From an uncultured Spirochaetota bacterium (lineage in GTDB: Bacteria; Spirochaetota; UBA4802; UBA5550), in the NCBI GenBank assembly GCA_937872225.1, contig CALMRZ010000016.1, positions 1 to 64,000 on the forward strand: DNA of 64,000 bases. The letters run 5' to 3'. Shown one piece after another: positions 1,001 to 39,900 of this stretch. Below the pieces are notes generated by a model. That model searched no databases, was not told the DNA's origin, and worked only from the letters and a program-made list of their open reading frames with translations. Position 1 is the first letter of the stretch, and each line of letters starts with the position of its first letter. A program made the translations under genes and the position numbers.

Positions 1001-1831
1001 TTGTCAGTAGTATCGATGAAAGCATTGTTGGAATCGGGAGTTCATTTCGGCCATCAGACCAGGCGCTGGAACCCCAAGATGTCGCAGTTTATTTTCACTG
1101 CGAGGAACGGAATCCACATCATTGACCTGCAGAAGACCATGCAGCGCATCAAGATCGCCTATGCCGCGATGAAGGAAGTCGCGGAAAAGAACGGCAGGGT
1201 CCTTTTCGTGGGAACGAAGAAACAGGCCCAGGCCGCGATAGTCGAGTACGCGAAGAAGTGCGGCCAGTTCTACGTGTCCGAGCGGTGGCTGGGCGGCCTC
1301 CTGACCAATTTCAAGACCGTCAGCAACTCTATCCGGCGCCTCAAGGAGCTGGAGAAGATGAAGGAAACGGACAACTGGGACGCGGAGACGAAAAAGGAGA
1401 TCCTTGATCTGAACCGCGAGCTTGAGAAGAAGGACAAGGTCCTCTCCGGCATCAAGGACATGACCAGGATGCCCGACGCGCTCTTCATCATAGATCCGAA
1501 GCGCGAATCGATCGCCGTGCAGGAAGCCAAGAAGATGGGCATCAAGATTTTCGCCGTGGTCGACACCAACTGCAACCCGGACGAGATTGACTTCCCGATT
1601 CCGGGGAACGACGACGCCATCAGGGCCATCGCCCTCTTCCTGGATGTCATGGCCCGCGCGGTGCTGGAAGGCCAGTCCGGCGGCATCACCGAGGAGGCCC
1701 TCGTGGAAGAGGGGGGCGAAGAAGGCGCCGGCGAAGAAGCGGCCGCCGCGCCGGAAGGATCGACAGAGGCGCCCGCAGGTTCGTCGTACGAATACGACGA
1801 GGACGACGAAATGTACGAGCCGCGCAAGTAG
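1001..1831 (+). CDS. rpsB: 30S ribosomal protein S2
   Basis: S2 is a component of the small ribosomal subunit and binds near bS1 on the 30S body. The 276-residue product begins [20 protein letters not shown], the family's highly conserved N-terminus, and carries [21 protein letters not shown] and FIIDPKRE at the expected places. The start is TTG at 1001, supported by GAGAGGGGG eight bases upstream and by alignment with the family start. The last 50 residues or so form a Glu/Ala-rich acidic tail that makes the protein longer than the usual 230-260. It is followed by tsf after 78 bases, the standard bacterial order, so the two are almost certainly co-transcribed. Confidence 0.98.
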
Positions 1832-39141: not shown

Positions 39142-39284
39142 TGAAATACCCCTTTGTGTTTATATTTTAGCAGGATGGAGATTCTTCATTCAACTCGTGT
39201 AACCTCTTGTTGGACGCTAGCAAACTACCCGCCCCGGAGTCAAGGCAAAACCGTTCCGGGCAAGCATTGGAAATGGAGGACAGA

Positions 39285-39399
39285 CAGCCCTGCCATGGAA
39301 GCCGGTGAATTCACCCCCGGTGCCCTTGATGGTAACGGCATTGTGCGGGGCGGTTTCCGCGATATCGGCGCCTGCGAATTTTTAATGCGGAAAACCTGA
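39285..39399 (+). pseudogene. Remnant of a choice-of-anchor/beta-helix repeat protein C-terminus
   Basis: The frame ending TGA at 39399 translates as TDSPAMEAGEFTPGALDGNG followed by GFRDIGACEF. This is the typical closing module of secreted parallel-beta-helix proteins (SPAIDAG...DGN.R...DIGAYEF). No upstream part of such a protein, no signal peptide and no plausible start are present, so it is a leftover from a deletion. The same frame continues after the stop with coding-like text to 39540 (CRDLESDKKFLE), which might be more of the same debris. Confidence 0.6.
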
Positions 39400-39592
39400 A
39401 CATTGCGGCGGCCCATGGTACCGTGGTCCCGGATCTGGACCTGCAGGGGGGCGGTGCCGGATGTCGCGGCGGATGGCGCCATCTTTTTTGGCGAGATTCA
39501 CTGCCGGGACCTTGAAAGCGATAAAAAATTTCTTGAATAAAATACACGGCTGGTGAAAATTAGTATTAATATCACTAAAGCTGGAGGATTTG

Positions 39593-39823
39593 ATGAAAAG
39601 AACAATGATTGTCATGATGGCTGCCGTTTTTATGGCGAGCTTGGTCTCCTGCGCGAGCGTTGAGAAGAAGCGGAAGGATTGCAACGACAAGTGCGCGGCC
39701 GAGAAGACGGCCTGCATCAACAAGGCGACCGATGCGAAGACCAAGAAAGTCGACGCCAAAAAGAAAGCCGAGTGTGAAAAGAACGCAAAGGCGTGCGGCG
39801 ACAAATGCGCGGCCATCAAGTAG
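39593..39823 (+). CDS. Small lipoprotein with mirror-symmetric cysteines
   Basis: A 76-residue protein. It has a signal peptide with lipobox LVSC (Cys20 lipidated), then a Lys/Ala/Asp/Glu-rich helix pair. Its six further cysteines are at 30, 34, 41, 61, 68 and 72: C-X3-C-X6-C-X19-C-X6-C-X3-C. Each mirror pair sums to 102, so two antiparallel helices could be laced by three disulfides. I know of no family with this exact pattern. GGAGG is five bases before ATG 39593. A terminator follows, so it is monocistronic. A structural or metal/redox role in the envelope is possible but unproven. Confidence 0.85.
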   Translation: MKRTMIVMMAAVFMASLVSCASVEKKRKDCNDKCAAEKTACINKATDAKTKKVDAKKKAECEKNAKACGDKCAAIK

Positions 39824-39867: not shown

Positions 39868-39900
39868 TGGCACTGTCTGTAATCCGGGCAGTGCTTTTTT
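39868..39900 (+). terminator. Rho-independent terminator of the Cys-rich lipoprotein gene
   Basis: GCACTG (39870-39875) pairs with CAGTGC (39889-39894), followed by TTTTTT (39895-39900). Confidence 0.85.

Follow-up and report, generated by a model that had tools for sequence, protein, structure and literature searches.

A gene for a predicted lipoprotein of 76 residues is located on the forward strand of the window (the whole 64,000-nucleotide stretch of DNA that was analysed), preceded by a ribosome-binding site and followed by a terminator-like hairpin (Table 1). Its translation revealed seven cysteines, at residues 20, 30, 34, 41, 61, 68 and 72, the last six of which follow the layout CX3CX6C-X19-CX6CX3C with residue 51 as the centre of symmetry, exactly as described in an earlier sequence-only reading of this DNA. 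That reading had also called the protein a lipoprotein, which was borne out by an LVSC lipobox at residues 17–20 with the cysteine at the cleavage site; together with the hydrophobic N-terminus, read by eye, this lipobox constitutes a predicted export signal. The mature protein comprises 57 residues and lacks His and Met, and no CxxC motif is present in the 76-residue protein. Its helical core (see below) has a net charge of +9 and contains no Phe, Trp or Tyr.

Table 1. Features of the six-cysteine gene and its surroundings (window positions; residues numbered from the initiator Met)
Feature	Position	Strand	Basis
Gene (with stop codon) for predicted six-cysteine hairpin lipoprotein of 76 residues	39593..39823	+	ORF translation, relatives
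Putative ribosome-binding site GGAGG, 5 nt before ATG	39583..39587	+	Read in sequence
Predicted signal peptide, residues 1–19, ending in lipobox LVS	39593..39649	+	Sequence; L067 and the paralogue L002 share a lipobox
Cys20, predicted lipidated N-terminal cysteine	39650..39652	+	Lipobox LVSC
Predicted helix 1, residues 21–45, CX3CX6C (C30, C34, C41)	39653..39727	+	AlphaFold2 (21–45 or 22–45); Cys spacing
Predicted helix 2, residues 55–73, CX6CX3C (C61, C68, C72)	39755..39811	+	AlphaFold2 (55–73); Cys spacing
Terminator-like hairpin, 11 pairs, then T run	39869..39895	+	Weak: shuffles average 1.0 such sites

Both flanking genes, which we take by eye from their sequences to encode a 3-hydroxyacyl-CoA dehydrogenase and a tryptophanyl-tRNA synthetase, are on the minus strand, opposite to the six-cysteine gene, which therefore probably stands alone. 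None of the neighbouring genes in the window hinted at the function of the protein, no secretion, immunity or bacteriocin gene was recognised adjoining it, and a sequence scan found no sigma-70-like promoter nearby. The intergenic region 39240–39540 contains broken coding-like sequence (e.g. ...RDIGACEF...), possibly a decayed gene. Within the gene itself (39680–39814) the two CX3C segments are also alike in sequence, CNDKCAA versus CGDKCAA, with similar underlying DNA; this likeness is direct, inside a mirrored cysteine pattern, and is absent from the paralogue.

The fold of the protein was predicted with AlphaFold2, which from the single sequence yielded helices at residues 21–45 and 55–73 with block pLDDT values of 92–93 over residues 31–70, and from an alignment of 11 sequences yielded helices at 22–45 and 55–73 with much the same confidence. 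The pTM was 0.55–0.56 and the signal peptide was modelled with low confidence. These models correspond to a predicted helical hairpin, and on a helical wheel the three cysteines of each helix fall within 40 degrees of one another, on one face. Fold searches with this hairpin returned only generic helical hairpins (Foldseek best E 2.2; VIA-align best Z 6.2), a result that excludes no family.

The cysteine geometry was subsequently scored on two ideal helices, by the deviation of each possible pairing and spacing. The antiparallel mirror pairing 30–72, 34–68 and 41–61 showed a deviation of 0.00 Å, while the other five antiparallel pairings deviated by at least 1.68 Å; likewise, among ten mirrored spacings of equal length, only 4/7 and 7/4 were at 0.00 Å, with 3/8 and 8/3 at 0.49 Å. 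This exact fit indicates that, in the idealised model, the mirror symmetry is what a three-rung ladder requires. A parallel arrangement with in-order pairs fits this geometry too, which makes geometry alone not decisive, and it is the models, in which a nine-residue linker connects two long helices, that point to the hairpin. Of the two antiparallel helices with three disulfides envisaged in the sequence-only reading, the hairpin and the ladder geometry are thus supported by prediction; from these we infer the disulfides themselves, and the disulfide state, pairing and location given below should be read in the same way.

A single-protein search of the genome to which the window belongs (4.69 Mb, 95 contigs) revealed four further matches to the hairpin protein. 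Specifically, the best paralogue (G000:C89:29567) is 40% identical and has its seven cysteines at identical positions, two further matches have loops of 18 and 20 residues, and the fourth has eight cysteines with gaps of 3,6,3,9,3,6,3. The eight-cysteine relative L005 (G000:C95:26655-26849, minus strand) reads CX3CX6CX3C-X9-CX3CX6CX3C, as if a fourth rung had been added, and carries an acidic, Asp/Glu-rich tail after the cysteine pattern. A gene reading like a sugar kinase adjoins the paralogue-type gene in four genomes (L002, L067, L069 and L073; paralogue locus L002 at 1501–1740, plus strand). The window gene is not in this setting, and may be a relocated duplicate of the L002 paralogue type.

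Searching the single protein against 20 genomes of the same family yielded 15 non-self matches at E ≤ 1, ten of which carry both half-motifs: all six matches at E ≤ 0.01 and four of the nine weaker ones (motif absent from L010, L011, L012, L014 and L016, E 0.17 to 0.59). In an alignment of ten sequences, which did not include the eight-cysteine L005, the six cysteines were invariant at low overall identity, an invariance that is partly due to selection, as the aligned sequences were picked among motif carriers. When genome contigs were scanned with this one protein, 75 stretches were obtained, and not one of them was confirmed. The family profile matched 41 of 392 genomes of the phylum at E ≤ 0.01, 28 of them belonging to the same order as the window and 13 to other orders. 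The spacing 3,6,n,6,3 was present in 25 of the 30 loci listed from this search, with n being 13, 18, 19, 20, 25 or 31; as the profile itself had included six of the 25, the motif is carried by 19 of 24 new loci. The exceptions were L090, L093, L095 and L096, which lack the full motif, and L088, which has the motif with extra Cys. The former four are all the loci read from outside the window's order, and on these sequences the family appears restricted to one order within the phylum sample.

Homologues with unconserved spacing, named in the sequence-only reading as what would refute it, were sought among these relatives, and the outcome was not a refutation: the half-motifs are conserved, although the X19 loop is not. 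If the ladder holds, fixed half-motifs with a free loop are to be expected, because the two cysteine stripes must face each other. We refer to proteins with these half-motifs, the window protein included, as the spirochaete 3-6-n-6-3 hairpin family. The protein at L080, in a genome of the same family, is identical to that at L141 of Spirochaetae bacterium HGW-Spirochaetae-5 (an unclassified member of the Spirochaetota according to NCBI). At E ≤ 0.01 the family profile matched five loci in the window's own genome, one of them broken by stops; another genome of the same order (G173) also has five such matches, two of them within ~2.4 kb on one contig. The lipid anchor is predicted for the window member but is not a conserved trait: only some relatives have a lipobox, most have none, and others resemble signal peptidase I substrates. 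Charge varies likewise, from –3 to +13 net among 25 members, several being neutral or acidic.

This conservation bears directly on the possibility that the arrangement arose by chance, in a real or a spurious ORF. When the mature residues after Cys20 were permuted 200,000 times, a palindromic cysteine spacing was obtained in 485 shuffles and the 3,6,n,6,3 pattern in 4, and at the former rate the scanning of many ORFs would yield some palindromic spacings. Moreover, the bare DNA pattern of six TGY codons is unspecific: 50 of 392 genomes contain it, many of these matches lying out of frame or within repeats, versus ~18 with a control pattern counted by eye. As any reader scans many ORFs, conservation counts for more than shuffle odds, and since the cysteine pattern is conserved across paralogues and relatives the chance explanation is in effect already refuted: the pattern is not a product of chance. 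Internal duplication was also considered as the cause of the symmetry and rejected, as a duplication leads to a direct and not a mirrored order.

Similar hairpins were found in other bacteria, which renders the earlier description of this cysteine ladder as unusual in bacteria too strong. A scan of GTDB species genomes with a loop-13 pattern including a conserved Lys yielded at least 120 stretches, and among the 80 loci listed from these matches ten small proteins with an export signal were recognised by eye (the other 70 were not counted), from two spirochaetes, one member of the Desulfobulbaceae, one of the Acidobacteria and six Proteobacteria/Gammaproteobacteria bins. When a profile of the eight non-spirochaete hairpins was run against 196 genomes from the order to which one of them belongs, 14 matched, two of the 14 only weakly. 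The loop-13 motif was present in 19 of 20 loci read, the exception (L245) being cut at a contig end, and nine of those 20 are genes already found in the pattern scan. The Gammaproteobacterial hairpins (L126, L150, L151, L157, L159 and L192) have the pattern CX3CX6C-X13-CX6CX3C following a signal peptide; they share the half-motifs with the window protein but differ in their loop of 13 residues, the mostly missing clear lipobox and, by eye, a rather acidic character. Profile–profile comparison of the loop-13 hairpins with the spirochaete family gave a probability of 96.9 over 45 columns, a value that is driven by the cysteine columns of sequences chosen for their cysteine pattern and does not imply common descent. 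By eye, the Gammaproteobacterial gene tends to be near genes reading like acyl-CoA dehydrogenase and aspartate kinase (L150, L151, L159, L240, L241 and L250–L258). In Candidatus Uhrbacteria, a long protein (L184, 203–1183, minus strand) seems to contain several CX3C-type hairpin units in tandem.

Genes for disulfide-forming enzymes of the VKOR family were present in 18 of the 20 family genomes, with three loci in the window's own genome, while DsbB was found in one of the 20 and was absent from the own genome. The full sequences of two of these three VKOR proteins were read; both extend into a C-terminal part with a CxxC, which would fit a fused DsbA-like domain. Given these genes, the cell is probably able to form disulfides outside the cytoplasm, which supports, but does not prove, an oxidised state of the cysteines in the hairpin protein.

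Taken together, we consider an exported, disulfide-stapled helical hairpin to be the best explanation for this gene (probability about 0.7, without regard to a scaffold role). The protein would be exported by Sec, lipidated at Cys20 and thereby tethered to the membrane, and, once across the cytoplasmic membrane, oxidised by the fusion enzymes of VKOR type that its own genome encodes, to give an antiparallel alpha-helical hairpin with a ladder of three disulfides (C30–C72, C34–C68 and C41–C61). Because the hairpin contains no aromatic and few large hydrophobic residues, the disulfides and alanines would form its core, and the product would be a short, tough, Lys-rich rod held at the membrane. 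As the stapled hairpin is the constant feature while charge and lipobox vary, we tentatively propose that this rod may act as a stable scaffold or adaptor of the envelope for an acidic partner, a role that we regard as possible with the odds against it; the idea of an acidic partner is itself weakened by the unconserved basic charge.

The six cysteines might instead remain reduced and line an inter-helix groove, so that the protein, as a monomer or a dimer, binds a soft metal, for instance Cu(I). Copper storage proteins, which are cysteine-lined bundles, provide the model for this alternative, all six cysteines do face the interface of the antiparallel hairpin as in a thiolate-lined groove, and the scan for related spacings also caught one very cysteine-rich small protein (L124) that is presumably of the copper-storage type. 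We nevertheless consider metal binding unlikely in view of the prevalence of VKOR-type oxidases in the family genomes, the missing His and Met, and a mirrored spacing with constant residue sum, which is what disulfide rungs would need; furthermore, neither the hairpin protein nor its relatives matched the Pfam model of the copper storage family. A hairpin cycling between reduced and oxidised forms, which would buffer thiol redox state or sense oxidation in the envelope, would accord with six invariant cysteines amid little other conservation and with the five family-profile matches in the window's own genome. It appears improbable, since the protein has no CxxC redox motif and disulfides laddering two antiparallel helices generally have a structural role.

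Slightly less probable still is a secreted peptide for defence or competition, i.e. a basic stapled hairpin, tethered or released, that resembles the plant alpha-hairpinins. Their helix-loop-helix with symmetric cysteines is indeed shared according to the part of the source consulted (PMC11591084), and the family profile has as its best PDB match an animal peptide that forms a stapled helical hairpin, albeit at E 0.39. Against this, the window member has a lipobox, several family members are neutral or acidic, the genes adjoining the window gene include none recognised for secretion, immunity or bacteriocins, and where the gene neighbourhood is conserved, as in Gammaproteobacteria and a single spirochaete subgroup, it resembles housekeeping. 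The exported, disulfide-stapled hairpin remains our preferred reading. Short genes with hardly any conservation apart from their cysteines are easily overlooked, and fixed half-motifs with a free loop provide a simple rule to search for them. The stapled hairpins might in turn serve as convenient, compact substrates for studies of VKOR-type disulfide formation, and as very small scaffolds for design.

With regard to known families, nothing exceeded the cut-off in Pfam or NCBIfam for the hairpin protein or its relatives, and a profile search of the PDB gave nothing significant; by these sequence comparisons, the protein is assigned to a small-protein family absent from Pfam and NCBIfam. In the literature covered, which mostly excluded subscription papers, we recognised no paper describing this bacterial motif. 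Family searches in the same phylum did find the small exported cysteine-rich proteins of NCBIfam TIGR04454 (Lepto_4Cys) and TIGR04453 (Lepto_8Cys). With the former model the window protein scored 15.7 bits (cut-off 35); for the latter (cut-off 34 bits) it was not listed, and nothing in its own genome matched that model at E ≤ 0.01 either. TIGR04453 proteins have eight cysteines, as opposed to six plus the lipobox cysteine here, and both families were rejected on cysteine layout (the 8Cys mostly being 3,5,about 20,3,9,7,5).

Likeness of design extends further than likeness of sequence. Plant alpha-hairpinins, as described in the part of the source consulted, are also small helix-loop-helix proteins with mirror-symmetric cysteines and a variable loop, their motifs being CX3CX4-20CX3C (4C) and CX3CX3CX4-20CX3CX3C (6C) (PMC11591084); the window protein differs in its spacing of 3,6,19,6,3, with a second gap of 6 instead of 3, and in being bacterial, predicted to be lipid-anchored and without a sequence match to them. 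The aforementioned PDB match, neurotoxin B-IV of a nemertean worm (1vib; E 0.39, not significant), has CX3CX6C and CX6CX3C in its aligned part, as the window protein does, and in the portion consulted is described as a disulfide cross-linked helical hairpin (PMC6410017). It is an animal toxin with four disulfides, and its likeness is likely due to convergence, making it a useful precedent for the fold. The resemblance to mitochondrial intermembrane-space proteins that was noted from the sequence holds for architecture only. As far as the consulted part of the source goes, twin-CX3C proteins are ~10 kDa, with two antiparallel helices each carrying paired cysteines, and fold oxidatively outside the cytosol (PMC3848088). 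Twin-CX3C and twin-CX9C proteins have two cysteines per helix, spaced by 3 or 9 residues, whereas the window protein has three (CX3C plus CX6C) with 33 residues between its CX3C motifs; their oxidation is by Mia40 and the one proposed here is of the VKOR type; and no twin-CX3C or twin-CX9C (CHCH) family was among its Pfam matches up to E 10. A bacterial class of oxidatively folded envelope hairpins, made by VKOR enzymes in several copies per genome and serving as chaperones, adaptors or assembly factors, could be the convergent counterpart of the mitochondrial twin-CX3C/CX9C proteins, a speculative view that has the odds against it. With the family described here, a type of stapled hairpin familiar mainly in plants, venoms and mitochondria would recur among conserved small proteins of bacterial envelopes.
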